DNA of 24,829 nt from a virus. Positions within the stretch are counted from its first letter, which is position 1. Every line of letters begins with the position of its first letter. The position numbers were made by a program, and so were the translations under genes. The notes beneath the pieces were generated by a model. It was not told the DNA's origin, did not search any database, and saw only the letters and a program-made list of their open reading frames with translations. Shown piece after piece: positions 710 through 20,682 of the stretch. Where the stretch lies: positions 1 to 24,829 of IMG/VR virus record IMGVR_UViG_3300042402_001517; one strand, written 5' to 3'.

Positions 710-1333
710 TTATAACGTTCTAGTGTGATAATCATACACCCACGTTACGGTGTACTCGGAAATAGCGTCCGTACTATCGTAAGATAAATCAATTGCAGAA
801 ATATCACTAATGAAACAATTGGCTAAATTATACGTTATAATGGGCGGTTGTGATACAACCACTTGGGTCACAACGTCTTCTACTCGCGTTACGGTTCTAC
901 TTCTGCCAAAAAGGCCACCACCTACACGTTCAACTATCGTTACTTGTTTTATTACTTCTTTTGTCACATCACCGGCGGCAAGTTGAGATACTATAACAGT
1001 CCCAATGCTGCCTTTGCTTGAAGATGCTGCGACTGAATCAAAATTTATACTTGCAGAAGAATTCTGTAACCTCTCAAGTACAACTCTTTCATTATACTGT
1101 GGATCCAAAAGCATAGTTGTGGTCCATTCACCAAATGTTCTATCTCCAGCAAGCTTATAACGTCTACCACCAGACATAGGAACCTCAATGGTTCCTATGG
1201 ATGATCCTGGTAGAGATGCTGCTTTACATAAAATTGTTGTGTTGAGTGAAGGTAAAGAAACAGAAAATAAATTAGGTCTAGCTCCTACCCCTATTAAATT
1301 TTTTAGGGTACTTAGTGTTGCTAAATTAGACAT
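710..1333 (-). CDS. 19: Tail tube protein gp19
   Basis: A 207-residue protein of the gp19 tail tube family, placed directly after the sheath gene as in T4. The conserved central motif (GGRR-x-KL-x-GDRTFG-x-WT) and C-terminal motif (SDISAIDLSYD) are intact. It is about 45 residues longer than T4 gp19. The excess is a valine- and charge-rich insertion around residues 122-163 with a GGG turn (GGGLFGRSR), which could form a long beta-hairpin. The start at 1333 has a strong AAAAGGAG ribosome site 7 bases upstream. A GATAAATA late-promoter-like element lies 30 bases before the start. A paralogue follows 14 bases downstream. Confidence 0.9.
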   Translation of the reverse strand: MSNLATLSTLKNLIGVGARPNLFSVSLPSLNTTILCKAASLPGSSIGTIEVPMSGGRRYKLAGDRTFGEWTTTMLLDPQYNERVVLERLQNSSASINFDSVAASSSKGSIGTVIVSQLAAGDVTKEVIKQVTIVERVGGGLFGRSRTVTRVEDVVTQVVVSQPPIITYNLANCFISDISAIDLSYDSTDAISEYTVTWVYDYHTRTL

Positions 1334-6060: not shown

Positions 6061-6873
6061 TTAAAACTCCCTTACCGCAGAAAAAGGATTGTATTCTGTA
6101 AAATCTAAAACATCATTTTCATTAAGTTCATCAATTAGGAACTCATTCTCTGCCGTAGTGTCTTTTTCTGCAATATGGACACCCTCTTCAATTAGATATG
6201 TACTATCTTGAAGCAGTAATAGATCGCCGTCTTCCAGTAGTGCTTTGGTAATAAATTCGGAAGATTGACTAAAGATTTCTTCGATGTTATCAATTTCTTG
6301 AACATCAGTATCAATTTTTTCATTTGAGTAGCGATATCGTTCGCATCGAATCTCATGAGTATAGAGTTTACCAAGTTGAAAGAAGTTTTCTATGTTTTCG
6401 GTAAACTTTATTTCATACATGTATCCCGCCATTGGTAGCCAAATCAAATCACCTTCTCTTGGTCTTAAGATTGATTCATAGTCATAGGCTACTTCGTTTA
6501 AAATTTCATTACCATCTTCAAGTTTTAAATTATACCCATATTCTGTTAACATGGATGTTTTGAGTGCTTGATCAAATCTTTTTTGTGCAACTACGAAATT
6601 AATCGACTCGTCGATTTGAAGACCAAACTTCGAAAGAAAATCTTCTTGACCCACGAACCCATCAAATGTTTTAATATACAGTTCTAAATGAATCGCATCA
6701 TCAAACTTCATTGATGCATCTTCGCCATACAATTTATCTAAATTAACATGAGTTCTAGGTAGATAATATGCCTCTACACCATATATCTTTATGGCTTCTA
6801 TAATTAAATCTTCGACAAGATTTTGTTCTTGTCTTATCTGTGTATATTGATTGAAGAATGCGTTACGGGCCAT
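6061..6873 (-). CDS. 14: Neck protein gp14
   Basis: A 270-residue neck protein (T4 gp14 is 256). With gp13 it closes the filled head and forms the tail attachment site. The N-terminal part (MARNAFFNQYTQIRQEQNL, then EAIKIYGVEAYYLPR) is characteristic of gp14 in this phage group. The C-terminal third is very acidic and low in complexity (many E, D, L), likely flexible. Its ATG directly follows the gp13 stop codon (TAA-ATG), so translation is probably coupled. Confidence 0.93.
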   Translation of the reverse strand: MARNAFFNQYTQIRQEQNLVEDLIIEAIKIYGVEAYYLPRTHVNLDKLYGEDASMKFDDAIHLELYIKTFDGFVGQEDFLSKFGLQIDESINFVVAQKRFDQALKTSMLTEYGYNLKLEDGNEILNEVAYDYESILRPREGDLIWLPMAGYMYEIKFTENIENFFQLGKLYTHEIRCERYRYSNEKIDTDVQEIDNIEEIFSQSSEFITKALLEDGDLLLLQDSTYLIEEGVHIAEKDTTAENEFLIDELNENDVLDFTEYNPFSAVREF

Positions 6874-7623
6874 TTAGCCCACCATGTCAGATACGGGTAA
6901 TGAATATGAAGATATCATTTCTTCTTCAAGCTTGGTCAATTCTTCATCTGCTTCATCATATATTTTTTGCCCGTTGAATGTCACACCACCAGGCATTGCG
7001 ATACCTTCGAACTTTTTAAGATTTGTTCCCCACTGTTTTTTAATTAATGCTGTGCAATATCTCTTTAGCCAACGATCATTCCAAACATCACTGTAAGTAT
7101 CTGGGTCCACTATTTGATACGCTTCGACGATGATGTATTCTCCGACAACAATCTTTTCTCCCCACGACATATCAATATAAAGCTTGTCTGTGTGTCGATT
7201 AAATCTTAGGGGTTGCTTGCCCACAAACATCTCTTCGGCTAAGGCAACATTTTGCAGTGCCATATAGTATGGTGCAAAAGGCCCATAGTTGAATGCGAAC
7301 AAATCGTTCAGGGCGATTTGATATCGCAGATTGAAAAGATTGTTTGTTGAATAGCTGTTACCAATGTCAAAGATATTGATGACGCCGATAATGTCTTCTG
7401 GAATGGAAAGATATCTATTGTCTACGTCAGTTTGCGTAACTTGATGGGCCAAAAATACTTTTTGAGTACCATCGAAATGATAATCTTGATAATATGCTAA
7501 AGCTTCATCTATCGCATCCTCTACTTGTTCATCTGCCACATTGATTTCAAGTAGAGGTGCGCCTAGATGTCTTAAGCAATTTTCTTTAAATTCTTCCCTA
7601 TTTGCGGGTCTTGATGAACTCAT
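6874..7623 (-). CDS. 13: Neck protein gp13
   Basis: A 249-residue neck protein (T4 gp13 is 309), needed for head completion. Diagnostic parts are the N-terminal segment REEFKENCLRHLGAPLLEIN followed by VEDAIDEALAYYQDYH, and the C-terminal part with WLKRYCTALIKKQWG and GIAMPGGVTFNGQKI. The ribosome site GGAGG is 9 bases before the ATG at 7623. It is enclosed in the 3' arm of a 13-bp inverted repeat, with a perfect late promoter in the loop, so expression should be restricted to late transcripts. It is the first structural gene after the sugar-modification cassette. Confidence 0.95.
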   Translation of the reverse strand: MSSSRPANREEFKENCLRHLGAPLLEINVADEQVEDAIDEALAYYQDYHFDGTQKVFLAHQVTQTDVDNRYLSIPEDIIGVINIFDIGNSYSTNNLFNLRYQIALNDLFAFNYGPFAPYYMALQNVALAEEMFVGKQPLRFNRHTDKLYIDMSWGEKIVVGEYIIVEAYQIVDPDTYSDVWNDRWLKRYCTALIKKQWGTNLKKFEGIAMPGGVTFNGQKIYDEADEELTKLEEEMISSYSLPVSDMVG

Positions 7624-7625
7624 TG

Positions 7626-7671
7626 AGAATTTCCTCCATTTTTTATACTATTTATAATTGGAGGAAATTCT
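7626..7671 (-). promoter_or_regulatory. Hairpin hiding the gp13 ribosome site
   Basis: A perfect 13-bp inverted repeat pairs 7626-7638 with 7659-7671 (AGAATTTCCTCCA / TGGAGGAAATTCT), with a 20-base loop. The arm transcribed second contains the GGAGG Shine-Dalgarno sequence of gp13. RNA entering from the upstream cassette would therefore fold the site away. The loop holds TATAAATA (7656-7649), from which RNA would start at about 7642-7644, after the first arm, so the site stays open. This is the arrangement known for T4 genes e, soc and 49. No T-run follows the stem, so it is not a terminator. Confidence 0.85.
7649..7656 (-). promoter_or_regulatory. Late promoter for gp13 and the neck/terminase genes (TATAAATA)
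   Basis: A perfect T4-type late promoter element on the minus strand, 26 bases before the gp13 ATG and within the loop of the 7626-7671 inverted repeat. From the usual T4 spacing, transcription should start about six bases beyond it, in the run of A residues just before the ribosome site. Confidence 0.8.
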
Positions 7672-7673
7672 AA

Positions 7674-8522
7674 CTATACTCCCATCTGCTTTCTTATTTT
7701 TGTGGCAGAAATGCTATGAATAGACTCATCAAAGACTTCTTGCTCAATCTTATATCCGACATCTCTACCGTAAGTAATATTTACAACATTTGGAACAACT
7801 TGAATTTCATATTGACCTTGATAAAGAGGGTCTAAGTCTCTGCGAATGAAATTTTTGACTTGTTCTATGGCAAATGGGTTTGTTCCTTGCCAGCCTTGAC
7901 AGTCTCGAATTTGAATAATCACCTGCCCTGTTTTAGATAAAGCACGTTCGAACAAAGCACGATGTCCAGGATGCCAAGGCTGCCAGCGTCCAAGCATTTG
8001 TACAGTTTCTTTTTTCCAATCAAACGATGGACGCCTTTGATTCTTTAGAATCCTTTCACCGACGTAAGGAACCCATTTCTCAGCATTCTGTTCAGTAACT
8101 CTGAAATCATAAATGTCGGGAGGAACAAAAGCTTTATTGGTATCTTCGTATCTACCCGCATCAATCGAATCGATCCAGATTGTCCAATCTGCTTTGAAAT
8201 TGTGGCGCATTTCTGGTAATGGTGCAACGAAATCACAGATTACATAATCGGCCGAACAAGTTAATGCAAACTCAGCCATGCGAATGCTTTGTCGAATTCT
8301 ACCCTCTCTACTGAAGTCCCAATCATTGTATTTTTTTCTCACTTCATCAGCATTGAACCACTGAACACTTACAACGTTACTTCTAGGTACGCTTTCTAGC
8401 GTAGTAAGTCTAATACTAGATAGATTTTGAATTGTGCCGTTTTCTTCAAGATATTTTTTAAGTCTTTCGGCAAAGTATGTCTTTCCCGCGCCTGGCAAAC
8501 CCATAATCAAGATTTTTTTCAT
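7674..8522 (-). CDS. APS-kinase-like domain fused to NadM-like nucleotidyltransferase
   Basis: A 282-residue two-domain protein. Residues 1-165 resemble adenylylsulfate kinase: P-loop GLPGAGKT at 8-15, FNADEVR at 56-62, an arginine-rich segment FSREGRIRQSIRM at 70-82, and CDFVAPLPEMR at 96-106. The tail of this domain (AGRYEDTNKAFVPP) resembles a form often labelled adenylylsulfate kinase in aquatic phages. Residues 176-282 resemble nucleotidyltransferases of the NMN adenylyltransferase (archaeal NadM) type: GRWQPWHPGH at 178-187 with the HxGH signature, TNPFAIEQV at 214-222, and the end motif ISATKIRKQ at 271-279. The real substrates are unknown. APS phosphorylation to PAPS would suit the nearby sulfotransferase; NAD or nucleotide-sugar chemistry are alternatives. 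It is the last gene of the cassette and lies one base after its partial paralogue. Confidence 0.75.
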   Translation of the reverse strand: MKKILIMGLPGAGKTYFAERLKKYLEENGTIQNLSSIRLTTLESVPRSNVVSVQWFNADEVRKKYNDWDFSREGRIRQSIRMAEFALTCSADYVICDFVAPLPEMRHNFKADWTIWIDSIDAGRYEDTNKAFVPPDIYDFRVTEQNAEKWVPYVGERILKNQRRPSFDWKKETVQMLGRWQPWHPGHRALFERALSKTGQVIIQIRDCQGWQGTNPFAIEQVKNFIRRDLDPLYQGQYEIQVVPNVVNITYGRDVGYKIEQEVFDESIHSISATKIRKQMGV

Positions 8523-8523
8523 T

Positions 8524-9474
8524 TCACGTTATCCTTTTAGAAAAGATTCTTTTAACTATTTTTTGAATACTTTCATCACTATCATCAGTGCATTCTATGT
8601 CATAATAAACTGGAGGAACATAAATTTCATTCAGTTCTTGATATTTAGATTCTTTTTTGTCGCTAACCCAAACTATAATATCGGGATTTAATATTTGCCT
8701 CATTTTAGGTAGGGGGCACACCATATTAATTATTGTAACTCCAGTCTGAGAATTTCTTGCCAAATTTAACATTCGATAACAATGTCGCATTTGACCATCA
8801 GGCGTGAAGTCAACGTCTTTATGCTTAATTCTTTCTTCTATTGAACTTAATATAGAAGAACTTTCAAATATTGCGTTAAGTTTTTTTGCAACTGAATTTT
8901 TTGATGATTCTGGCAAGCCCATAACTAAAATTCTAAATTTGTTGTCTGCTAATAGTCGATAATATTGTATCATACCTTCTTCTAAAGAATGAAACACCCA
9001 AGGTCTGAAAAATAAACATTGATTGGTATTCAATAAAATATTGGTATGTATTTTCCATTCAAATAAATTTCTATAATTAAAATCTGTTCTTTCTAGAGCA
9101 TTTTGTGCATTTACAGTTGCAAACTCCCCCATTCGATTTGTTTCATCAACATGATACCAAAAATTTACAGTTGTTGGTTCAAGCGCAACCATAAAACACC
9201 ATTCTTCTGTAGAATCAAATTCTTCAAAATGAATTAAATTGTGAGATGGTTTTCGTATGACACCCGATCTTTTTATGTCAACGGTAACTCGTTCTCCCAA
9301 AACTTTATAGAAAATTTGTTCACTATCAGGAAAAATTAAATTAAAATTTGGTATTTCCATTCCGTGTTGGGTTTCAACAAAAGTTAATCCTTCACTAACG
9401 CTTTTTAAATTTTCTGCGTCATTATCTGGAAAAAATTTGTCGGCATGCACAAGTTGCACCATTCTTCTACTCAA
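8524..9474 (-). CDS. 2OG-Fe(II)-oxygenase-like domain fused to degenerate APS-kinase-like domain
   Basis: A 316-residue fusion. Residues 1-175 look like a double-stranded beta-helix oxygenase. A possible iron-binding triad is His108-x-Asp110 and His162, with Arg173 eleven residues after the second His, where 2-oxoglutarate is usually bound. Residues 180-316 align with the kinase domain of the next gene: DFTPDGQMR matches DFSREGRIR, CPLPKMR matches APLPEMR, and YVPPVYYD matches FVPPDIYD. Its P-loop reads GLPESSKNS (186-194): the glycine before the lysine and the following Thr are lost, so ATP binding is doubtful and it may be a pseudokinase. The start is a TTG at 9474 with AGGAG 9 bases upstream; an ATG at 9462 has a poorer site. 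Substrate unknown. Confidence 0.6.
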   Translation of the reverse strand: MSRRMVQLVHADKFFPDNDAENLKSVSEGLTFVETQHGMEIPNFNLIFPDSEQIFYKVLGERVTVDIKRSGVIRKPSHNLIHFEEFDSTEEWCFMVALEPTTVNFWYHVDETNRMGEFATVNAQNALERTDFNYRNLFEWKIHTNILLNTNQCLFFRPWVFHSLEEGMIQYYRLLADNKFRILVMGLPESSKNSVAKKLNAIFESSSILSSIEERIKHKDVDFTPDGQMRHCYRMLNLARNSQTGVTIINMVCPLPKMRQILNPDIIVWVSDKKESKYQELNEIYVPPVYYDIECTDDSDESIQKIVKRIFSKRIT

Positions 9475-9475
9475 T

Positions 9476-10183
9476 TTACCATTCTCCTGTCCAGTGTTTT
9501 AATCCATTTTCTTTGTAAAAATTTCTCTTCATTGTTTCATGATCTTCAATAATTTCTTTTCCTCTATAGATAAATGTGTTATATGGTGGATTTTCTTCAT
9601 AAATTAATAAACCAGAAAAAGATTTTAATTTATCCAAAAGGTCTAAAAATACATCTTCTCCAGGATTGGTGTTTATTATTTTTTGTGTGAATGTGTATGT
9701 TACCGAATGCATATATGTCTGGGGGCCCAAAAAATAAACGCCGTGATGTCCTTGTTTTCTTCTAAAAAGATAAAGGTCTATGGTGTTAGCAAACAAGATA
9801 TTACCAGGCTCACTAATCATAATGTCGTGAGAAAAATCATAATGTCTACAAGTAGGTAAAACTTGTTTTACATTGTCTGATATAACAGTATCTAAATGCA
9901 CATTCGCCAATCTGTCTAGATCAACGTATATTCCACCTTCATAGTACATTTTATATAGTCTCCAAATGTCAGTCTTTGGCACAATATGAAAATTTTCTAC
10001 AAGACGAAAATCCACTCCCATATTTTCTCTGAGATAATCAATTATTTCCTCGTCGGTATGAACAGAAAATTCCCAATTGGAATTTAAGCTTCTTAATCTT
10101 TGTGCTCCAAGTTTGATCAGATCAAATTCACTGTCTAGAATATTTTTGTCATTCCACGACAAGTGAATCTTTTTTGGAATCAT
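9476..10183 (-). CDS. GT32-like glycosyltransferase with DXD motif
   Basis: A 235-residue protein of the DXD sugar-transferase type (Gly_transf_sug, GT32-like). The N-terminus MIPKKIHLSW is typical, and the core TDIWRLYKMYYEGGIYVDLD (71-90) ends in the DxD motif that binds the metal and nucleotide sugar. I chose the ATG at 10183, which overlaps the upstream stop as ATGA and has GGAAG 7 bases before it; a TTG two codons upstream is possible but lacks a site. There is no membrane segment. It probably adds a hexose to a glycan or protein; donor and acceptor are unknown. Confidence 0.8.
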   Translation of the reverse strand: MIPKKIHLSWNDKNILDSEFDLIKLGAQRLRSLNSNWEFSVHTDEEIIDYLRENMGVDFRLVENFHIVPKTDIWRLYKMYYEGGIYVDLDRLANVHLDTVISDNVKQVLPTCRHYDFSHDIMISEPGNILFANTIDLYLFRRKQGHHGVYFLGPQTYMHSVTYTFTQKIINTNPGEDVFLDLLDKLKSFSGLLIYEENPPYNTFIYRGKEIIEDHETMKRNFYKENGLKHWTGEW

Positions 10184-10965
10184 CTCCAAACTTCCATGTT
10201 AGAATATACTTTAATTAAATCAGGAGGAATGATAAAATTTCTAGGCTTATATTGAACTCTTCGATTAACCTTGTGTAAAGGAACTCCAATTTCTTTATCA
10301 TATTCATCCCAATTTCCTTCGACATTATTAAAATCGTGATCAAAAAAAGGTTCATCAATAAAAGAATATATGGCTTTCATTATTAAGTCTGGAGTTTGAC
10401 ACAATCTATCATATTCGACTATTAGAAGCTTATGTTTTTCATTACCTGTGATAGCTTGTTTAATTCCAATATATGGAAACCCAATTATACCCGTATTTCC
10501 CATAAGTGCTTCTGCTCTAGAATATACCGTCCCCCCAATACTTCCGCTTACTGTGTTGACGGTCATGGGATTTTCAACGTGTGCTTTTTCAAATGAGTCT
10601 ATAATCCAAGCGATGTCTCTGACACAAACAATAAATCTAGATTCTGGAAAAATAGCATTGACTTGAGGAGTCAAAAGAGTCCAGGCTCTATTCGTGTTGA
10701 AAATAACTTCTTTGTCTATTTCTTGATAATACCCACTAAACATTCCTTTCACAGTATTAACTCTTCGTGAAATAGGAACTTCATATTTAATTCCAGGCCC
10801 AGTTTGTATTGTTTCTATAACACCCTTTGTAATATCAGCAAGAGGATCGGTAATTGATGCGTGAAATCTAGGATTTTGTTTCAGAATAGAACTTAAAAGT
10901 GTTGATCCTGATCTAGGCAATCCTGTAATAAAGTGATACTTTTTCATATTAACGTTCTTGTCCAT
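10180..10965 (-). CDS. Sulfotransferase
   Basis: A 261-residue sulfotransferase-family protein, expected to move a sulfuryl group from PAPS to an acceptor such as a sugar. The 5'-phosphosulfate loop is ITGLPRSGSTLLSSIL (13-28). The 3'-phosphate site is seen at RFIVCVRD with Arg116 and Ser124 (WIIDSF). Three starts are possible. The ATG at 10965 (AAAAGG 6 bases upstream) and the ATG at 10947 (starting MKKYHF, four bases after the upstream stop) both put the loop at the usual N-terminal position. An ATG at 11016 follows AAGGAGG by 11 bases but would overlap the previous gene by 68 bases. The APS-kinase-like gene in the same operon could supply the donor; this is inference. Confidence 0.85.
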   Translation of the reverse strand: MDKNVNMKKYHFITGLPRSGSTLLSSILKQNPRFHASITDPLADITKGVIETIQTGPGIKYEVPISRRVNTVKGMFSGYYQEIDKEVIFNTNRAWTLLTPQVNAIFPESRFIVCVRDIAWIIDSFEKAHVENPMTVNTVSGSIGGTVYSRAEALMGNTGIIGFPYIGIKQAITGNEKHKLLIVEYDRLCQTPDLIMKAIYSFIDEPFFDHDFNNVEGNWDEYDKEIGVPLHKVNRRVQYKPRNFIIPPDLIKVYSNMEVWR

Positions 10966-11626
10966 TTGATGCCTTTTTCCTTTTAGTGATTGTTGTTTCT
11001 TCGTGTGGAAGATCATATGCGTAAAATCCTCCTTGTATTACGCCAAAAACATCCGTTCTAATAGTTATATCTAGAGACTCGTTGATTCCATATTTCAAAG
11101 TGTGTGCCAATAAATTTTTAGCACTCAAAGGATCAATTGCATATGCATGGGCCCTAAGAATGAATTTGTAGTTTGCGTTTTTCTGAGCCATTGGAGGAAT
11201 TGGAGTGACGGCCCAACCTGATGCTTGTTCTCTGCCACCAAGATATACAATTTGATTGTATCCATGATGATTTGTGTATGGCATGACCATTATTGAATCA
11301 TGTTCTAAAATAACAATGGGCATATTTACTTCTATACAGTGCGCCCATAAACTAGCATGGCTTAAATATACAGCAACTTCAGTAATGCTAAGTTCAGTGT
11401 CGTATTGTTTAATCCAATTAATCCAATTTTGATTTCTTAAGTTTTCGGGTATGACTATTTCACCAGAAGTGCCATCAAAGGCGTCCCATATTTCATACTT
11501 TTGTTCAACTCTTTCACAACTAAGTTGACACCTTCGAGACAGCATTTCACTCAATTCATGATTTTTAAGTGTGATGATATAAGCCTTATCGACGGTCATG
11601 TCGTTACATGGCATAAGTGTTTTCAT
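10949..11626 (-). CDS. GT25-like glycosyltransferase
   Basis: A 225-residue protein resembling glycosyltransferase family 25 (LPS biosynthesis type). The family start AYIITLKN is at 15-22, the segment EVAVYLSHASLW at 83-94 matches the usual CxLSHxxLW core, and PIVILEHD at 103-110 takes the place of the family's ILEDD motif, with His for the first Asp. The altered acidic motif may change metal or donor use. It lies 7 bases after the FkbM gene and slightly overlaps the sulfotransferase. ATG codons at 11626, 11614 and 11599 are all possible starts; none has a strong ribosome site. Confidence 0.7.
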   Translation of the reverse strand: MKTLMPCNDMTVDKAYIITLKNHELSEMLSRRCQLSCERVEQKYEIWDAFDGTSGEIVIPENLRNQNWINWIKQYDTELSITEVAVYLSHASLWAHCIEVNMPIVILEHDSIMVMPYTNHHGYNQIVYLGGREQASGWAVTPIPPMAQKNANYKFILRAHAYAIDPLSAKNLLAHTLKYGINESLDITIRTDVFGVIQGGFYAYDLPHEETTITKRKKASNGQER

Positions 11627-11633
11627 AAATTAC

Positions 11634-12440
11634 TCAATCATTTGCAAGCAATAATATGTCTCTGTATTCTGTTGTGTTCATTATATTTTTTGTTAAGGTT
11701 AACAAATCAAAGAAATTTAAAGGTTGCAATTTATATGTTGGATTATTAATATCTATTTTCTCAATCATGAATGGTGAATATTTATTTCTATCGATAAAAG
11801 AGAAAATATCAAATACTGAAAATCCACACTGTGCAATTTGAGATGGTGAATATTCTAGTATAATATTGGGTCTGTTGTTTTCAAAAAATTTTGACCCTCC
11901 GTTTAATACTCTACATTCAGAACCTTCAACATCAATTTTTATTAAGCTTATTTTTTTCGTGTCAATATTATGTATTTCACAAAATCGATCTATAGTTGAA
12001 ACTTTAACTTGACAATGGCTGTTATGAATTTCTGGATTACAAAACTTAGGATTCAACATATGATTTCCAAAGTTTTGTTTCGAACTGTATAATTCTCCAA
12101 CGTATTCTGATTCCGCTAATGCTAGTTTAACTGCCGTAACATTATTTAAATTGTTTAATTTTATATTATTTTTTAGAACCTCAAAGTTTTTATTATCTGG
12201 TTCAAATGAAAATACTTTTCCATTTTCTCCTACAATCAAACTTGCAAAAACAGTTTGCCATCCTATATTAGCACCAATATCTAAAAAATAGTCACCTTTT
12301 CTCATAAGATAATTATATGCGTTTATTGCCTCCATGTCAATATTACAGCCATAATTTCTTATGATATTTGATGTTAATTCGTTATCATCATGAATTTCAA
12401 ATATGAATTCGTGGCCAAGCAGATTATAATTTTTTATCAT
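11634..12440 (-). CDS. FkbM-family methyltransferase
   Basis: A 268-residue SAM-dependent methyltransferase of the FkbM type (Methyltransf_21), which usually O-methylates sugars or small molecules. The SAM site is YFLDIGANIG at 51-60 with the acidic partner FSFEP at 77-81. The family signature IKIDVEGSE is at 167-175, preceded by STIDRFC. The first 17 bases overlap the end of the upstream gene, which points to coupled translation. In a cassette with three glycosyltransferases and a sulfotransferase, a sugar hydroxyl is the likeliest target, but the acceptor cannot be read from sequence. Confidence 0.88.
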   Translation of the reverse strand: MIKNYNLLGHEFIFEIHDDNELTSNIIRNYGCNIDMEAINAYNYLMRKGDYFLDIGANIGWQTVFASLIVGENGKVFSFEPDNKNFEVLKNNIKLNNLNNVTAVKLALAESEYVGELYSSKQNFGNHMLNPKFCNPEIHNSHCQVKVSTIDRFCEIHNIDTKKISLIKIDVEGSECRVLNGGSKFFENNRPNIILEYSPSQIAQCGFSVFDIFSFIDRNKYSPFMIEKIDINNPTYKLQPLNFFDLLTLTKNIMNTTEYRDILLLAND

Positions 12441-13806
12441 GTTCTTCTATCAATTTTTCAACTAATTTAGAAACTTCTTCCAGGGGTTCTTTCCATGAAC
12501 GAACTTTTGTTTGTCTAGAAACGTAAAAATTATCTCCATACCAAGGAGATGTTCCATCACGTTTTGATGTTGTCCAAATATAATATTCAGCTATAGGAAC
12601 CATAACAAACGTTCGTTTCCCCATAGCACCAGCGGCATGCACAATGCTAGTGCAAGAAGAAACAATACAATCCATCTGATCTATTAAATCGAGAGTATCT
12701 TCCCAAGATTTTATTCGATCCGATAAATCTATTAATCTAGAACTTTCGTATTGACAAGGTTTTTTGTCGAAGAAATATAATTCACAATTTTCTGGTAACG
12801 CATCAACCATAAGTTCTATGGGTATTTTTCTGTATTCATCTTGTGCGAAATATGGATTACCAGAATTTTTAATACCTATTTTGAATTTTTTATTTTCTGG
12901 CAATTTATTTTTTTCTTGTCTCAATGGTAAAATATATGGTCCATTCCAAAGTTGGGCTTCTGTCAATCCCATTTCTCCTGGCAATCCCATAAGAGGCGTC
13001 CAATAATTTTTTTCATCTATTAAAATTTTGTCAGTCAATACATCAAAACCATTTCTAATTAAGACCTGATTGATGTCTCGATAATACTCACTATCATTTG
13101 ATACTAAAATAGGATTCATACCATAAGATTTTAGTCTTTCAAAAAATCTTATATTAATGATTACGTCGCCATAACCCCCCTCTGCGTCAACATATAGAGT
13201 TTGTCCAGGATGAATAATTCCATCCCATTTTTTATTTTTACTTTTTGTATCTAAAAAATATTTGTCGGGATGAAATTTTCCTATAAAAGACAGAATACCC
13301 TCTGCCAAATTACCTTCACGAAGAAGTTTTCCAGAAAATGCTGATTTTAGTTTTGTGGCATTTTCTGGATATTTCTCTAACATGTCTAATAATATTTTTT
13401 CGGCAACATCTTTTTGACCCATCAACGAAAGATTGGAAGACTTTAAACAATTTAGTTCAAAATCGTCTGGATTATATTGCAAATTTTGTTCCAAATAAAA
13501 AAGTGCTTTTTCTGGCATATTCATTGTATTATATGCTTTTATTAGATTTAATCTAGCAACATATAACTGATCGAAATCTTTCGCTAAACTGTATACATAC
13601 TCTGCACATTTAAGATATGTGTCGCGTTTGTCAGATTTTAATGACAAATATCCTATTGTATCATACTCTATTAAATTTGATGCGGTAGAAAAGTAATGAT
13701 CAATAATATTCCAGGCCAAATCTCTTCTGTTTGCTCTTATTAAATCCATTACCATCGATTTAATAAATTCTGGATTTACGGGTAAAGGTTTACTTTCATC
13801 AGTCAT
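12424..13806 (-). CDS. TPR protein with C-terminal glycosyltransferase-like (GT-B / heptosyltransferase-like) domain
   Basis: A 460-residue two-part protein. Residues about 25-180 are helical and contain TPR-like pairs (LIKAYNTMNMPEKALFYLEQ and LSLMGQKDVAEKILLDML). Residues about 200-455 resemble the GT-B fold of glycosyltransferase family 9 proteins fused to TPRs: GQTLYVDAEGGYGDVIINIR at 201-220 is the N-terminal Rossmann start, and a later segment around DCIVSSCTSIVHAAGAMGKR matches the nucleotide-sugar end. The TPR part may hold the acceptor protein, as in O-GlcNAc transferases. It overlaps the upstream methyltransferase by 8 bases and the downstream one by 17. No secretion signal is visible. 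Confidence 0.75.
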   Translation of the reverse strand: MTDESKPLPVNPEFIKSMVMDLIRANRRDLAWNIIDHYFSTASNLIEYDTIGYLSLKSDKRDTYLKCAEYVYSLAKDFDQLYVARLNLIKAYNTMNMPEKALFYLEQNLQYNPDDFELNCLKSSNLSLMGQKDVAEKILLDMLEKYPENATKLKSAFSGKLLREGNLAEGILSFIGKFHPDKYFLDTKSKNKKWDGIIHPGQTLYVDAEGGYGDVIINIRFFERLKSYGMNPILVSNDSEYYRDINQVLIRNGFDVLTDKILIDEKNYWTPLMGLPGEMGLTEAQLWNGPYILPLRQEKNKLPENKKFKIGIKNSGNPYFAQDEYRKIPIELMVDALPENCELYFFDKKPCQYESSRLIDLSDRIKSWEDTLDLIDQMDCIVSSCTSIVHAAGAMGKRTFVMVPIAEYYIWTTSKRDGTSPWYGDNFYVSRQTKVRSWKEPLEEVSKLVEKLIEEHDKKL

Positions 13807-14356
13807 TTTTCAAAACAACCAATTTTATATGAATTTCACTGATGAGATTGTTATGATGTTCAGCATATTTTTGTATGTCTTGATAGGGAGATATTCCTTG
13901 AGATTGTAAAAAATTTAATTCGTGCGTATCCGGAATATATTCAAAATCTACAATTTCAAAATCAACTTCGTAATATTCACCAAGCCTAGAAGCAGGTTCT
14001 TTATTTTTTCTACACAATTCATTAAATTTTTTACTGAATAATTTAAAAGTCATCGGTGTTATTGGTCTACGATGAGTTGGATCGGCCAAAAATGATTCGT
14101 GTCTTGGATGAGGAACTCTGATATCGATTATTGCGCCATGTTCACAGATACGGTGTAATTCTTTAATACAGTGAAAAAATCCTTCACCCAAGTGTTCAAA
14201 TATGTGATGCGCCTTCACAACTTTTACAGAAGAATCTGTAAAAGGCAATATATCAGTTTCTAAATTTAGAATGTGGGTTGGATTGGTTTTTGGATCAATA
14301 TCAATAGTGATATAATCATTTTCAGGAGTATCCCCTGCACCTATACTTATTTTCAT
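13799..14356 (-). CDS. Class I SAM-dependent methyltransferase
   Basis: A 185-residue short methyltransferase-fold protein. The opening KISIGAGD (2-9) is a shortened SAM loop, YITIDID (15-21) gives the acidic ribose-binding strand, and VVKAHHIFEHL (46-56) matches the motif common in Methyltransf_11 proteins encoded in polysaccharide clusters. The segment FLADPTHRRPITPMTF is characteristic of this group. It is the first gene of the cassette, preceded by AAGGTG 5 bases before the ATG and by a sigma-70-like promoter. Acceptor unknown; a sugar or glycan is likely from the neighbours. Confidence 0.75.
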   Translation of the reverse strand: MKISIGAGDTPENDYITIDIDPKTNPTHILNLETDILPFTDSSVKVVKAHHIFEHLGEGFFHCIKELHRICEHGAIIDIRVPHPRHESFLADPTHRRPITPMTFKLFSKKFNELCRKNKEPASRLGEYYEVDFEIVDFEYIPDTHELNFLQSQGISPYQDIQKYAEHHNNLISEIHIKLVVLKND

Positions 14357-14381
14357 AGATCACCTTAAATATTAAAATATT

Positions 14382-14410
14382 ATTATAGCAAATAAAATTT
14401 GGTAAATCAA
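14382..14410 (-). promoter_or_regulatory. Sigma-70-type (early-like) promoter of the modification cassette
   Basis: The minus strand carries TTGATT (14410-14405), a spacer of exactly 17 bp, and a perfect -10 TATAAT (14387-14382) preceded by TGC, an extended -10. It lies in a 66-base gap, one of the longer gaps in the window. Transcription would start near 14375, about 20 bases before the first cassette gene. T4-like phages use host-sigma-type promoters for early genes, so the cassette can be expressed before the late structural genes. Confidence 0.7.
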
Positions 14411-14422
14411 TTTTTGAATAGT

Positions 14423-15730
14423 TTATCCTGTGCGATTGCGACCTGGTTGTGTCCTGAGTCCTGCCGCGTGACTATTTCCTGCTGAAATTTGCACCCAATC
14501 GGTAAAGCCTCCAACAATAGATGTCGGACTAACTCGATAATTAGTATCGCCAATACCTAAACGCCCGTAAGGATTAGACCCCCAAGCCCATGCTGTGCCA
14601 TTTGATCTTATGCCCATTGAAGTCGTAAACCCTGCTGTCAGTTGAACCCAATTAGTAAAGCCTCCCGCAACGGCGACAGTATTAGAACGATTAGTCATTG
14701 TCCCATCACCCAACCTACCTTCACTATTATTACCCCAGGAACGTGCCGTACCGTTTGCACGTAATCCTAATGAGTGATATCCTCCAGCCGCTACTTGAAC
14801 CCAATCAGTAATTCCACCAATAAGAGAAACTGGGCTTGATCTATAGACTGTAGTATAATCGGCAAGTTGTCCTGAATTGTTGCGACCCCATGACCAAGCT
14901 AAACCGTTGCTTCTAACTCCTAATGTATGAAACCATCCGGCAGAAACCTGTGTCCAATCACTAAATCCCCCCAAGACAGAGACAGGGCTTGATGTGTTGT
15001 AAAACGTATTATTACCGAGTTGACCAAATTGGTTAAATCCCCATGTCCATGCTGTACCATTTGCACGAACACCAACCGAATGAAATCTTCCTCCAGCAAC
15101 TTGTTTCCAATCGGTAAATCCTCCTACGACGGAGGTGGGGCTTGATCTATCATTTGTATAATTGATTCCTAGCTGTCCTCGGCCATTATATCCCCACGCC
15201 CAGGCTTGACCGTTAGCTCTAATTCCTATAGTGTGTCCTAGAAAACTATTACTAACAAAAACCCAATCTGTAAAACCTCCTACAACAGATACTGGACTGG
15301 ATCTACTAGTTCCTGCCCCGCTCAAATTTATTCCGAGTGCTCCATAACTATTTGTTCCCCAAGACCATGCGGTACCGTTTGCTCTAAGGCCGATAGAAAA
15401 ATTTGCCGAAGCTGAAATTTGCACCCAATCGGTAAAACCTCCGACTATTGAAACAGGACTAGACCTTGGAATTACAGTGCCGTCTCCTATTGTTCCTGAA
15501 GAGGAAACTATTTGACCCCAAGACCAAGCCGATGGCGTAGCAACAGTGCTACTTATAGATTCTCTCCAAGCAGCACCGTCCCAGACTATTAACTTATTTA
15601 ATGTGGTATCAAAAAATAATTGTCCAGGAACCCTACTACCCTCCGTAGGTCTTGATGCCGTGGCTCCTGTAGTAAGTTGAACAATCCTGTCTGATGTTAT
15701 GACAGTGGTGCCGCCTACACTAAAAGTCAT
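14423..15730 (-). CDS. RCC1-repeat fibre/adhesin protein, third copy
   Basis: A 435-residue protein. Residues 1-65 are a fibre-type head with a GQLFFDTTLNKLIVWDGAAW segment, shared with the two upstream paralogues. The rest contains seven repeats of about 50 residues. Each runs W-x-WG...G-x-LG...RSSPVSVVGGFTDW-x-Q-x-S-x-G...H...G-x-RANGTA, the RCC1 pattern, which predicts a closed seven-bladed beta-propeller. Blade 5 is altered (GQLADY for GxLG). The C-terminus (LRTQPGRNRTG) differs from the paralogues' short ends. It overlaps the DUF4376-like gene as ATGA. The location beside other fibre genes implies a virion surface or receptor-binding role, but this is not shown. Confidence 0.8.
   Translation of the reverse strand: MTFSVGGTTVITSDRIVQLTTGATASRPTEGSRVPGQLFFDTTLNKLIVWDGAAWRESISSTVATPSAWSWGQIVSSSGTIGDGTVIPRSSPVSIVGGFTDWVQISASANFSIGLRANGTAWSWGTNSYGALGINLSGAGTSRSSPVSVVGGFTDWVFVSNSFLGHTIGIRANGQAWAWGYNGRGQLGINYTNDRSSPTSVVGGFTDWKQVAGGRFHSVGVRANGTAWTWGFNQFGQLGNNTFYNTSSPVSVLGGFSDWTQVSAGWFHTLGVRSNGLAWSWGRNNSGQLADYTTVYRSSPVSLIGGITDWVQVAAGGYHSLGLRANGTARSWGNNSEGRLGDGTMTNRSNTVAVAGGFTNWVQLTAGFTTSMGIRSNGTAWAWGSNPYGRLGIGDTNYRVSPTSIVGGFTDWVQISAGNSHAAGLRTQPGRNRTG
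15287..15338 (-). repeat. Blade segment shared with another RCC1 gene (copy 1)
   Basis: These 52 bases match 16638-16689 in the neighbouring RCC1 gene at 50 positions; the differences are at 15299 and 15317. The copy encodes the unusual loop INLSGAGTSRSSPVS in blade 2 here, but in blade 6 of the other protein. The near identity at synonymous sites points to recent copying between non-equivalent blades. Confidence 0.8.
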
Positions 15731-16389
15731 TCTGTGTTCCCGTTAGGTTTTTTATAAATGTCTTCTATGGCCAATAAATCATCTATAGATTGAGCAGAAT
15801 TTATTGCATTATTTAATTCTAGTTCATAGTTAAATGTAGATTGTACATGATTATGTATCGCTTGTACAATAGATAACATTTGTTGTTTATTTAAGTTTAC
15901 CCAATCGCCGTTATTAAATTTCCAATTGATAATTTCATCATCATTCATGACTAATAATCTATCAGAATATTTAGTTCTATCATCTCGATTGGTGCTGAAG
16001 AATCTTTCAACTCCGTTAATCTCCAAATTAAAGCCAGAAATTTCTTTTTTGTATCTTAAGTCTGCTGCCACTTCTCTATGTTTTATTTTTGCATCTTCTA
16101 AACTATAATAGACAACTTCGTAATGTGCAATTACTTTATTTTCTAAAAATTCCCAAGTTGGTCCATAATACATTTGAGTTAATACGTTTGTAATTGGAGG
16201 CCTATCTTCTTCGGCAGGGTATATGATGATATCATCATTCACAATAAATGGAAATGACTCCGATAACGGTTCATCATACGGAATTTCAATGTTGACACGA
16301 TATCTTACTCTGAAAACATCTTGAATGTATTTGTTATTCCAAGGTATAATTCCCAAAACAACCATATTTTTATATTTTACAGCATACAT
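15727..16389 (-). CDS. DUF4376-like protein, probable tail-fibre assembly partner
   Basis: A 220-residue protein inserted between two RCC1 genes. The C-terminal part (about 110-215) fits the DUF4376 pattern often found beside phage fibre genes: a strand LEINGVERFFSTNRDDRTKY, then a segment around INWKFNNGDWVNLNKQQML and a helix VQAIHNHVQSTFNYE. The N-terminal half is beta-rich and unrecognised. It has a GGAG ribosome site 8 bases before the ATG, and its stop overlaps the next RCC1 gene. By position it could be a folding helper or a fibre tip attachment for the RCC1 proteins; this is inference. Confidence 0.6.
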   Translation of the reverse strand: MYAVKYKNMVVLGIIPWNNKYIQDVFRVRYRVNIEIPYDEPLSESFPFIVNDDIIIYPAEEDRPPITNVLTQMYYGPTWEFLENKVIAHYEVVYYSLEDAKIKHREVAADLRYKKEISGFNLEINGVERFFSTNRDDRTKYSDRLLVMNDDEIINWKFNNGDWVNLNKQQMLSIVQAIHNHVQSTFNYELELNNAINSAQSIDDLLAIEDIYKKPNGNTE

Positions 16390-16406
16390 TTATTTTTCTC
16401 CAAAAA

Positions 16407-17681
16407 TTAAACAGCACGAATCGCATGTGTGGCATATCCTGCCGAAATAAAATCCCAATCTGTAATTCCACCAACAACAGATACTGGACTCGATCTTTGT
16501 GCGGTTGTTCCATCACCTAATCTGCCAGTAGAAAATCCATTATATCCCCAAGTCCAGGCTGTACCATTTGAACGTAAACCCACCATATGGGTGTCCCCAC
16601 ACGAAATTTGAGTCCAGTCTGCAAAACCGCCGACGATAGATACTGGACTTGATCTACTAGTTCCTGCTCCGCTCAAATTTATTCCGAGTTGGCCGTACTG
16701 ATTGCTACCCCAAGTCCATGCAGTGCCATTTGCTCGAAGACCAGCAGTATTTTGCCAGCCTGCACTAATAAGTGTCCAATCTGTCCACCCTCCAACAACA
16801 GATACTGGACTCGCCCTTTGAGTAACAGAGTTATCTCCTAATCTTCCATTTGCATTGTTTCCCCAAGCCCAGGCTGTACCATTTGCACGAACACCAGTGC
16901 TATGTCTAACACCGGCCGAAACTTGTATCCAATTTGTAAATCCTCCAGCAACTGAGACGGGACTCGATCTATTTGTACCAACACCCTCTCCTAATCGACT
17001 ATATCCCCCATCTAGCCCCCAAGCCCAGGCTGTACCGTTTGACCTAACTGCTAATGTATGGTATGCAGAAGCGGAAATGTTTGTCCAAGTAAAGCCTCCT
17101 AAAACAGAAACTGGACTTGATCTATGAACGATTCCTGCAACACCGTTTCCGAGTGCTCCAAAATTGGCTCGGCCCCAACACCATGCTGAGCCATCGGCAC
17201 GTAGTGCTGCGCTGTGATACTGTCCATTTGAAACTTGTATCCAATCTGTAAAACCTCCAATAACAGAAACAGGACTTGACATAGATAATGTCGTAGAAGT
17301 GTTATTTCCTAGATTACCATATTGATTCCATCCCCAAGACCATGCTGTACCATTAGCTCGAATTCCCGTCGTGTGTCGTAATCCTGAAGAAATAGTTACC
17401 CAGTCTGTAAAACCTCCAATAACAGAAACAGGACTAGTCGTTCCAGTACCAGTTCCAGTTCCTAAGCCGCCAGTTGAATTATCACCCCAAGTCCATAATG
17501 CGGCCGCACTTGCTGTTGATGTTATAGAGACCCATGCAGTTCCATTATAAACTTCAAATTGACTCAAAGAGGAATTAAACCGAATCATTCCTGTGACAGG
17601 AGAACCAGGAGTTGCTGTGCCCAAGGTGAACTCCCTAGTTAATAAATTTATAACTGTTGTGCCATTAACTGAAATTGTCAT
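16407..17681 (-). CDS. RCC1-repeat fibre/adhesin protein, second copy
   Basis: A 424-residue paralogue with the same plan: a fibre-type head (SPVTGMIRFNSSLSQFEVYN, then GTAWVSI, within residues 1-60) and seven RCC1 repeats. Blade 4 (WGLDGGYSRLG) and blade 7 (WGYNGFSTGRLG) carry small loop insertions. Loop residues between WG and GxLG, and just before the histidine of each blade, vary most, while the SSPVSV-GGFTDW strands are nearly constant. Variable loops on a constant frame suit a binding surface. The ribosome site is weak (GGTTGAAA, 17 bases after the previous gene's stop), so it may rely on coupling. Confidence 0.8.
   Translation of the reverse strand: MTISVNGTTVINLLTREFTLGTATPGSPVTGMIRFNSSLSQFEVYNGTAWVSITSTASAAALWTWGDNSTGGLGTGTGTGTTSPVSVIGGFTDWVTISSGLRHTTGIRANGTAWSWGWNQYGNLGNNTSTTLSMSSPVSVIGGFTDWIQVSNGQYHSAALRADGSAWCWGRANFGALGNGVAGIVHRSSPVSVLGGFTWTNISASAYHTLAVRSNGTAWAWGLDGGYSRLGEGVGTNRSSPVSVAGGFTNWIQVSAGVRHSTGVRANGTAWAWGNNANGRLGDNSVTQRASPVSVVGGWTDWTLISAGWQNTAGLRANGTAWTWGSNQYGQLGINLSGAGTSRSSPVSIVGGFADWTQISCGDTHMVGLRSNGTAWTWGYNGFSTGRLGDGTTAQRSSPVSVVGGITDWDFISAGYATHAIRAV
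16638..16689 (-). repeat. Blade segment shared with another RCC1 gene (copy 2)
   Basis: Partner of 15287-15338 with 50 of 52 bases identical. It encodes INLSGAGTSRSSPVS in blade 6 of the second RCC1 protein. Confidence 0.8.
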
Positions 17682-17695
17682 CTTTTTTCAACCAA

Positions 17696-18946
17696 TTAAG
17701 TAGAACCTCTAATTGCTGCTGAATTATTATATGCTGAAATTTGCACCCAACTAGTAACCGCTCCTACAACCGATGACGGGCTTGATCTATAAATTGTTGT
17801 TCCGTCACCTATGTTGCCTTGTCCATTATAACCCCAGCCCCATGATGTACCATTTGAACGAATAGCCATAGTATGAGCTTGCCCTGCGTCAATTTGTATC
17901 CAGTCGGTAAATCCTCCAACTACTGAAACAGGGCTAGACCTTGGAACTACAGTGTTGTCTCCAAGTCTTCCTAAGCTATTTTGTCCCCAACACCAAGCTG
18001 TACCATTTGCACGAATAGCAGTAGTATGAAAAGCTGAAGCAGAAATTTGTATCCAGTCGGTAAATCCTCCAACTACTGAAACAGGGCTACTTTTATTTAT
18101 TACAGTGCTGTCTCCAATCTGTCCCCAATTATTTCTACCCCAACACCAAGCCGTACCATTTGCACGAATAGCAGCAGCGCCCTGGCCACCGGCCGATATG
18201 TGTGTCCAATCAGTAAACCCGCCTACTACAGATACAGGACTACTTCTATTAGTTATCGCAATATTACCCAGTCTTCCGTATTGACCATAGCCCCATGACC
18301 ATATAGTTCCATTCGTTCGTCGGGCAAGAGTAAAACTACTTCCACCTGAAATCTCGATCCAATCAGTAAACCCACCTACCACTGAAACAGGACTCGATCT
18401 ATTGATAGTATTATTGTCTCCAATTTCTCCAAAAATACCTTCCCCCCAACACCAAGCTGTACCATTTGCACGAATAGCGGGACTATGAAAACTGCCTCCA
18501 CTGATTTGCGCCCAATCAGTGAATCCACCTACCACCGAAACAGGACTCGATCTATCTACTGCAAAACCGTTGCCTAATTGTCCAGCAAAATTCGAACCCC
18601 ATGCTAGTGCTGTGCCATTATCTCTAATGGCTACATTATGAGAATAACCAGGTGAAATTTGTATCCAATCAGTGAATCCGCCCAATACGGATACCGGACT
18701 TGATTGATTCGCCGCTGAACTGTTCCCTAATCGTCCTGAAGAGCCGAATCCCCATGTCCATGCGTTACCTGATCCACTAGAAGTTAAATCAACCCACGCA
18801 GAACCATTCCATCCTTGAACTATCCTTTTATTTTCATTAAAAAAAACTGTTCCTGTAGTTGGAGTGCCTGGAATTAGAGATGATTGTCCTAATATAACGT
18901 TTCTATTTCCGTCGATAACTAAATTGGATCCTACCCTGATTGTCAT
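17696..18946 (-). CDS. RCC1-repeat fibre/adhesin protein, first copy
   Basis: A 416-residue paralogue. The head (residues 1-62) has the fibre-type segment GTPTTGTVFFNEN followed by GWNGSAWVDL. Seven RCC1 repeats follow, with WG cores at TWGFGSSGRLG, AWGSNFAGQLG, CWGEGIFGEIG, SWGYGQYGRLG, CWGRNNWGQIG, CWGQNSLGRLG and GWGYNGQGNIG. The last blade ends IRGST. Three blades have CWG where the other copies mostly have TWG or AWG. A ribosome site GGAAAG lies before the ATG at 18946. The function proposed is virion-surface binding, from the head domain and location only; in eukaryotes RCC1 propellers bind proteins and nucleosomes. Confidence 0.8.
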   Translation of the reverse strand: MTIRVGSNLVIDGNRNVILGQSSLIPGTPTTGTVFFNENKRIVQGWNGSAWVDLTSSGSGNAWTWGFGSSGRLGNSSAANQSSPVSVLGGFTDWIQISPGYSHNVAIRDNGTALAWGSNFAGQLGNGFAVDRSSPVSVVGGFTDWAQISGGSFHSPAIRANGTAWCWGEGIFGEIGDNNTINRSSPVSVVGGFTDWIEISGGSSFTLARRTNGTIWSWGYGQYGRLGNIAITNRSSPVSVVGGFTDWTHISAGGQGAAAIRANGTAWCWGRNNWGQIGDSTVINKSSPVSVVGGFTDWIQISASAFHTTAIRANGTAWCWGQNSLGRLGDNTVVPRSSPVSVVGGFTDWIQIDAGQAHTMAIRSNGTSWGWGYNGQGNIGDGTTIYRSSPSSVVGAVTSWVQISAYNNSAAIRGST

Positions 18947-18964
18947 ATTTTATTCTTTCCGGTT

Positions 18965-18980
18965 TTAGTAAAAATACTAA
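18965..18980 (-). other. Small AT-only inverted repeat in the fibre gap
   Basis: TTAGTA and TACTAA form a 6-bp stem with a 4-base loop in the 44-base gap between the S74 fibre gene and the first RCC1 gene. It has almost no G-C pairs and no following T-run of note, so it is at best a weak pause or attenuation site. I see no promoter in this gap. Confidence 0.3.
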
Positions 18981-18990
18981 GATTACCTTT

Positions 18991-20682
18991 TTATTCTTTT
19001 TTATTTGTTTCGAGGGTGGTTATTCTATCAGAAAGTTCTTTGATAGACTCAACCAAATATCCGATTAATCCAGAATAATTCAAGGTTTTCATTTCATTGC
19101 CGTCTTTAGTTTCTGTAGTATCAACTAAATGTGGTAATATTTTTTCTACCCACTGAGCAATTAAACCTGATGATTTTTTATCATTGTCTAGCCATTCAAA
19201 TTCTACACCATCGAGCAATTTAATTAAGTCTGTCGCATTATTTATTTTAGTAATATTCTTTTTATGTCTTTCATCTGAAAGTGAATTCAATACCGTTGCG
19301 CTGAAAGTTCCAGTAGAGGGATTGAAAGTTAATTTAGTCGAACTTACGCCAACGGTAGTTGCTGTTCCAGATGTTGCGTCTTCCCAAAGAGGGTATCTAG
19401 TAGCGTTGGTTGAAGTGTCATCTGAGATCGTGGCGCCCGCACTGATGCCAGTTAATTGACTTCCATCACCATAGAATCTAGTTGCATATAAGTAGCCACC
19501 ATAGTTTAATCTAGTTGTTGCAGAAGGATTCGTTGTTCCGCCGTCAAATTGTCCAGATGTAGCAGTAGTACCATTGTATTCGACGAATGATGATGAAGTT
19601 GAGCCGGCAGTTACACCACGATCACCAGGAAGTGTTCCTGATGTAATATTAGTGGCACTGGTTGTGTCAGTGGTTGCTGATGTTGCAAGACCAGAAATTT
19701 TGCTCGTCGCAATAGCAGCACCAGTTGCAATATCAGCATTGACAATTGAACCAGTTAAACTCAACTTACTGTATGCAATAGCAGCACTTGCAGAAATATC
19801 ACCATTTACAATAGTTGCATCAGCAATCATCGTGCTAGTGACGGTGCCACTATCCGCAGTGGTAATTACAGTTCCATTTACCGCTGGCAATGTGATTGTT
19901 GTACTTCCTGCCGCAGCACTGGCTTGAAGAACCGTCGTGCCGCTTGTTGAACCTCTAAATTTAATTGTGTTAGCTAGAACTGCACCATTGACTTGAAGCT
20001 TGCTTGTGCTATCGAAATCTGTGTTTGTGCCAACTAATATTCTACCACTGTACTCTGCAAGTCTGATTTGTCCAGTGTCATAAACTTCAATGCTTGGTAT
20101 ACCAGAAACATCATTAACGGAATATATCACTCCGGTCATCGAATCCGTCACGGAGAATAACTGTCCAGTGCTACCTTCAAAGGATAGAGTGCCTAAGCTG
20201 CTTGTGCTCTCCATTAAAACATTAATTGTATTTGTGCCATTGCTGCTTAAAAACTCTAACTCTTTGACAACACGTAATGATGCACCTGCGCCGCTGTTGT
20301 TTGCGGTAAGCATCGGGCTTGCCGATGAACCGCTAAAAGACGATGCTACAGTTGTTGTTGCGCCTCTTGCAGTTACTGTGGCTAGTGTATCAGATTCTGA
20401 AGTTAAAAATCCTGATACTGTTCCCGTTGCGACAGAAGCTGCGGTAACGTGTCCAAAAGTATCGAATGTAAAACTGATGTCCTGTATAAAAGTGGTTCCA
20501 CCGCTATTATCGCTGGAGATATTACCAACGCTTGAAGTATCCGCGTGAGAAACTGTAGCAGTTGACCCCTCACCGGCAGTGTGAGATACAGAGATTCCAG
20601 ACCCAGAGCCAGCCACGTCGGCTACATAATTGCCATCTGTCTGTGTTCCTAGAACTATTGGGCCGGAAATTAGTAATGCCAT
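18991..20682 (-). CDS. Tail fibre with C-terminal Peptidase_S74 intramolecular chaperone
   Basis: A 563-residue fibre. Residues 1-460 are low-complexity, rich in S, T, G and A, with beta-structural repeats typical of trimeric fibres. Residues 469-563 form an S74 domain: SDERHKKN at 469-476 with the Ser-Asp pair at the expected self-cleavage site, LLDGVEFEWLD, GLIAQ at 507-511 and the helix YLVESIKELSDRI. In this family the domain drives trimerisation and then cuts itself off before the serine, which would leave a mature fibre of 468 residues. A GGGAG ribosome site precedes the ATG at 20682, 11 bases after the preceding gene. Confidence 0.9.
   Translation of the reverse strand: MALLISGPIVLGTQTDGNYVADVAGSGSGISVSHTAGEGSTATVSHADTSSVGNISSDNSGGTTFIQDISFTFDTFGHVTAASVATGTVSGFLTSESDTLATVTARGATTTVASSFSGSSASPMLTANNSGAGASLRVVKELEFLSSNGTNTINVLMESTSSLGTLSFEGSTGQLFSVTDSMTGVIYSVNDVSGIPSIEVYDTGQIRLAEYSGRILVGTNTDFDSTSKLQVNGAVLANTIKFRGSTSGTTVLQASAAAGSTTITLPAVNGTVITTADSGTVTSTMIADATIVNGDISASAAIAYSKLSLTGSIVNADIATGAAIATSKISGLATSATTDTTSATNITSGTLPGDRGVTAGSTSSSFVEYNGTTATSGQFDGGTTNPSATTRLNYGGYLYATRFYGDGSQLTGISAGATISDDTSTNATRYPLWEDATSGTATTVGVSSTKLTFNPSTGTFSATVLNSLSDERHKKNITKINNATDLIKLLDGVEFEWLDNDKKSSGLIAQWVEKILPHLVDTTETKDGNEMKTLNYSGLIGYLVESIKELSDRITTLETNKKE

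Follow-up and report, generated by a model that had tools for sequence, protein, structure and literature searches.

A predicted ribosome-binding-site hairpin around the late promoter of the neck gene gp13 in uncultivated T4-like phages

We suggest that a perfect inverted repeat in front of gp13, a virion neck gene, very probably acts in cis as a lock on the translation of gp13 from read-through RNA. The window (the whole stretch of DNA analysed) is a 24.8-kb viral contig of a T4-like phage, and the proposal is built from its sequence and from gp13 loci of related phages. Polymerase arriving from the upstream genes would transcribe both arms of the repeat, and the two-arm RNA would fold, burying the gp13 GGAGG, so that gp13 would be poorly translated from it. 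Late in infection, a gp55-type late polymerase would start within the loop, some 6 nt past TATAAATA, producing an RNA without the 5' arm, with a nearly unstructured 20-nt leader and a free Shine-Dalgarno (SD) sequence, from which gp13 would be translated. Where a terminator or a divergent neighbour already protects gp13, no significant hairpin of this sort was found. We infer that the promoter is used and where it starts, that translation drops, and that the read-through RNA is mainly early. Such a lock would mean that the T4 early/late translation switch, known from lysis and homing genes, also acts on a core virion gene.

The gp13 leader and its predicted folding

The minus strand carries a leftward run of genes: gp13, 14, 15, 16, 17, 18 and two for tail-tube proteins. 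Among named phages, Stenotrophomonas phage DLP_6 has the closest gp13 (58.6% amino acid identity), and a near-DNA search of such phages gave no match. The earlier note had placed gp14 before gp13; gp14 in fact lies downstream, and the upstream ORF is a kinase/cytidylyltransferase-like gene. The features of the locus are as follows.

7674-8522, minus strand: kinase/cytidylyltransferase-like gene, co-directional, upstream of gp13 (PHROG 10255, E 7e-45)
7671-7659, minus strand: 5' arm AGAATTTCCTCCA, upstream of the predicted late start and expected only in read-through RNA
7658-7639, minus strand: loop, 20 nt
7656-7649, minus strand: T4-type late promoter -10 element TATAAATA (sequence match), in the loop
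7643 (about), minus strand: predicted late RNA start (+1), from T4 spacing, 6 nt after TATAAATA
7638-7626, minus strand: 3' arm TGGAGGAAATTCT, carrying the SD
7637-7633, minus strand: gp13 SD GGAGG, in the 3' arm, 9 nt before the ATG
7623-7621, minus strand: gp13 ATG
6874-7623, minus strand: gp13, neck protein/head-tail adaptor Ad2 (PHROG 211, E 2e-42)
6061-6873, minus strand: gp14 (PHROG Hc2), downstream of gp13

On the minus strand the leader reads AGAATTTCCTCCA-AT-TATAAATA-GTATAAAAAA-TGGAGGAAATTCT-CA-ATG, with 2 nt between the end of the 5' arm and TATAAATA. All 13 positions of the arms form Watson-Crick pairs, giving a perfect 13-bp stem; both this repeat, with GGAGG in its 3' arm, and the late promoter in its loop are as the earlier note had described them. 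It ranks first among the inverted repeats of the window with arms at most 40 nt apart. By a hand estimate, about 0.03 perfect 13-bp repeats with loops shorter than 40 nt are expected by chance in the whole window, before any demand that the repeat frame a late promoter and an SD.

A 77-nt RNA with both arms is predicted to fold at -19.0 kcal/mol (shuffle mean -9.9, z -3.6), and none of 200 shuffles was as good, while the RNA from the predicted +1 at 7643 reaches a predicted -2.3 kcal/mol. Since the late start falls at about 7643 by the T4 rule, the 5' arm should be absent from late RNA, and the predicted folds agree with the claim that the SD would be hidden only in RNA containing that arm. 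An intrinsic terminator was considered as another identity for the repeat and ruled out, because no T run follows 7626 (the sequence there is CAATGAG), and the repeat is absent from the terminator scan list. No Rfam family matched the window at the gathering threshold.

The upstream cassette and possible sources of RNA

The same strand upstream of gp13 also carries glycosyl-, sulfo- and methyltransferase genes, RCC1-repeat proteins and tail-fibre-like genes. No copy of TATAAATA occurs within 60 nt of the start of any of these upstream-cassette genes, and no exact TATAAATA was found upstream of the gp13 copy in the 17 kb examined. In seven related contigs nearly all copies of TATAAATA lie on one strand, and homologues of the late sigma factor gp55 were detected in six of the seven. 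The scan revealed no terminator-like site on the gp13 strand from 12312 to gp13. One further element lies within the cassette.

12340-12312, minus strand: perfect sigma-70 consensus, TTGACA-17-TATAAT (12/12 match)

Early read-through RNA could originate from this consensus. Together, the co-directional cassette, the lack of a terminator and the sigma-70 consensus make read-through from upstream into gp13 plausible. The consensus is shared with the near-identical L005 and absent from L007 and L556 (the contig of L008); in L007 and L556 the cassette differs and the hairpin arms are unchanged.

The region 7674-20682 (minus strand), compared with L005, L006, L007, L009 and L556, is a cassette of variable cargo (glycosyl-, sulfo- and FkbM methyltransferases, RCC1 repeats), which differs between phages that are 95% identical across gp13. 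The homologue of the kinase/cytidylyltransferase-like gene sits elsewhere in the DLP_6 genome, and in the Pelagibacter phages Mosig and HTVC008M the place upstream of gp13 is taken by bilin-reductase/heme-oxygenase or 2OG-oxygenase genes. Three RCC1-repeat (beta-propeller) ORFs near the tail-fibre genes (14423-15730, 16407-17681 and 17696-18946, minus strand) possibly have an adhesive role. At the other end of the window, two tandem tail-tube (gp19-like) genes, not one, were found (123-695 and 710-1333, minus strand).

Stems at gp13 in related phages

We gathered gp13 loci from viral contigs, obtaining 169 distinct leaders, and grouped the relatives into 80 clusters. NATAAATA stands before gp13 in 152 of the 169 leaders. 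The hairpin arms are unchanged in L004-L009, and in L009 they are identical though the surrounding DNA is only 80% identical. Many other relatives have perfect or near-perfect stems that flank the promoter and carry the SD in their 3' arm, formed by arms of unrelated sequence, and a large clade around L325-L369 has gp13 stems of 9-15 bp. Examples of gp13 arms are listed below.

L047: GAAGATTCCTTGTTG, 15-16 bp
L051/L052: ATCTCCTTTT(T), 10-12 bp
L054: TGCCCTCAT, 9 bp
L087: TCTCCGAAATAT, 12 bp
L357: AAACTCCAGTCATT
L368: AACTCCAACCATT

The arrangement is absent at gp13 in RB51, DLP_6, phiM12, P-SSM2 and S-RIM2, and phage Mosig has the promoter and a weak 8-bp SD stem at gp13. The cultured Caulobacter phage Cr30 (L537) carries a 7-bp stem, TCCTTCT/AGAAGGA, over the gp13 SD, without TATAAATA. 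The gp13 leaders of L057-L063, L067 and L070 contain the palindrome TATTTATAAATA, which seems to represent back-to-back late promoters of gp13 and of a divergently transcribed gene encoding about 233 aa.

The place of the hairpin is fixed relative to the gp13 ATG, its 5' arm beginning 37-56 nt before it, and its distance to the upstream stop varies from -8 to +44 nt. This bears on translational coupling, in which gp13 on a polycistronic RNA would be translated only when ribosomes terminating on the upstream gene open the stem. The upstream stop lies 2 nt before the 5' arm in the window and within 10 nt in roughly half of the loci that have a hairpin, as coupling would have it; but in L327, L368, L369, L336, L510 and L328 the gaps of 18-44 nt are beyond a terminating ribosome and the stems are equally strong. 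Coupling also has no need of a late promoter in the loop, and since the stem is tied to gp13 and not to the upstream stop, we regard it as an improbable main function. Within a read-through lock, ribosomes terminating on the upstream ORF of the window could still briefly open the stem, the 5' arm being within their footprint.

To compare the presence of stems with the upstream context, we took a single locus from each cluster, applied dinucleotide shuffling to the 40 nt that precede its promoter, and counted stems at p<=0.01 as significant. Of the 54 clusters whose upstream gene is co-directional and not followed by a terminator, 13 have a significant stem; of the 10 with an intrinsic terminator between the upstream gene and gp13, and of the nine with a divergent upstream neighbour, none has one (13/54 against 0/19, Fisher p 0.016, clusters counted without correction for relatedness). 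Terminators were called by a simple in-house rule; one such call, in L052, looked spurious and was reassigned manually. Swap controls using the arms of other phages agree with the shuffles; we quote the shuffles because the swap controls are inflated by related arms. According to the earlier note, relatives that keep the promoter with unpaired arms would speak against the switch. Many such relatives exist, including 41 of the 54 co-directional clusters at p<=0.01, and with three quarters of these clusters lacking a significant stem the lock must be optional; the absence of significant stems from all 19 terminator or divergent clusters, on the other hand, fits a read-through function. Intrinsic terminators just before the gp13 late promoter (L011, L025-L027, L029, L031, L032, L035, L036, L040, L041, L044, L050) are an alternative insulation.

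The arms are symmetric around the promoter, as they would be in a palindromic DNA operator for a dimeric repressor of late transcription, and I-TevI, for comparison, represses its own promoter. A protein site would, however, conserve sequence, whereas here the arms of different lineages are unrelated beyond the SD complement and keep their pairing instead. The terminator and divergent contexts, moreover, retain the promoter without a significant stem. We therefore give the operator reading very little weight.

At the same loci, strong stems (at least 9) occur at 26 of 83 gp13 TATAAATA promoters and at one of 32 other late promoters; the single exception precedes a homing endonuclease, the textbook class for a ribosome-binding-site hairpin lock. 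That the gp13 stem arose by chance, or as a by-product of selection for an SD and a pyrimidine-rich stretch near the promoter with no regulatory effect, is hardly credible: many relatives do lack it, and short CTCC/GGAG pairings turn up often near AT-rich cores of any kind, but the perfect 13 bp beat all shuffles, stems of 9-16 bp recur at gp13 and not at other late promoters, and the L009 arms are unchanged amid diverged DNA.

The compensatory changes that the earlier note proposed to look for were found in one clade, at two pairs (U-A to C-G and G-C to A-U, both sides changed). In this L325-L369 clade the arm pair occurs as CCAGTCAT/ATGACTGG, as CCAACCAT/ATGGTTGG or as CTAGTCAT/ATGGCTGG. The paired fraction of cells in an alignment of 12 rows is 82.6% and falls to 28-44% when the arms are slid, and the covariation score was matched by 5 of 500 shuffles. 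RNAalifold returned no consensus structure for the wider 20-row clade alignment, which contains rows misregistered by MAFFT and stemless rows, and only 8 pairs for a subset. The covariation support for the stem is thus modest, and the pairing of unrelated arms is the stronger evidence. On the gp13 tree the hairpin label (with L010, p 0.02, and L051 added by hand) needs 7 to 11 changes, indicating repeated gain or loss of the hairpin. A paired test on this tree always gave the same direction and was not significant, with too few informative pairs.

Relation to known phage switches

Control by a late promoter and a ribosome-binding-site hairpin is established for T4 e, soc, 49, I-TevI/II/III and segB and for Aeh1 mobE (PMC3014915, PMC2988022), so the switch logic that the earlier note cited for e, soc and 49 is well founded in published systems. 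The gp13 site shares its elements: a promoter just upstream, a predicted SD-sequestering helix, and a 5' strand that would be absent from late RNA, given the start inferred from T4 spacing. In T4 gene e (lysozyme), as at gp13, the TATAAATA late promoter lies where the 5' strand of the SD-sequestering helix is encoded, and late RNA lacks that strand (PMC3014915). Unlike e, gp13 is a virion neck gene and not a lysis gene, its sequence is not homologous, and its control is a prediction from sequence; the gp13 of the T4-type phage RB51 is without such a promoter and stem. T4 soc and gene 49 are likewise late genes carried on longer upstream transcripts, with the SD hidden in the long RNA (PMC3014915, PMC2988022), but their upstream transcripts are known to be early/middle, whereas the timing of the RNA upstream of gp13 is presumed. 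In I-TevI/II/III, segB and Aeh1 mobE the late promoter is also immediately upstream and the hairpin forms in early/middle RNA only (PMC2988022); these are mobile genes inserted in early operons, whereas gp13 is a structural gene with variable cargo upstream.

The mechanism is thus already known from T4, and its use at gp13 appears undescribed: our literature searches found no account of a ribosome-binding-site hairpin lock at gp13, in line with the earlier note, which knew of none. What the present analysis adds is the repeated evolution of the hairpin at gp13 and its absence in terminator and divergent contexts. The many natural variants with unrelated stems make the rule that read-through risk selects for a lock testable by sequence alone.

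More tentatively, the site upstream of gp13 may be a recurrent cargo junction with repeatedly evolved, interchangeable insulators: some T4-like phages would have a terminator there, others a divergent gene, and others the SD hairpin that encloses the late promoter. Any of these would prevent turnover in the cargo and tail-fibre operons from mistiming the neck/packaging operon. We consider this possible, though somewhat less likely than its opposite. The gp13 lock itself suggests how phages could accept new cargo beside an essential late operon without disturbing its timing.

A scan of the collection for CTCC-TATAAATA-GGAG did not separate the real from a scrambled promoter (10/43 against 4/17 with at least 9 bp before ORFs, among the matches listed), and we do not count it as evidence. 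The pattern scan also displayed late-promoter SD hairpins before other ORFs in L145, L169 and L122, which by eye look like a prohead protease, a baseplate hub/lysozyme-like protein and an HNH endonuclease. In L527 (3753-4508, plus strand) the SD of a homing endonuclease gene has the late promoter itself as its pairing partner (TAAATACTCT/GGAGTATTTA).
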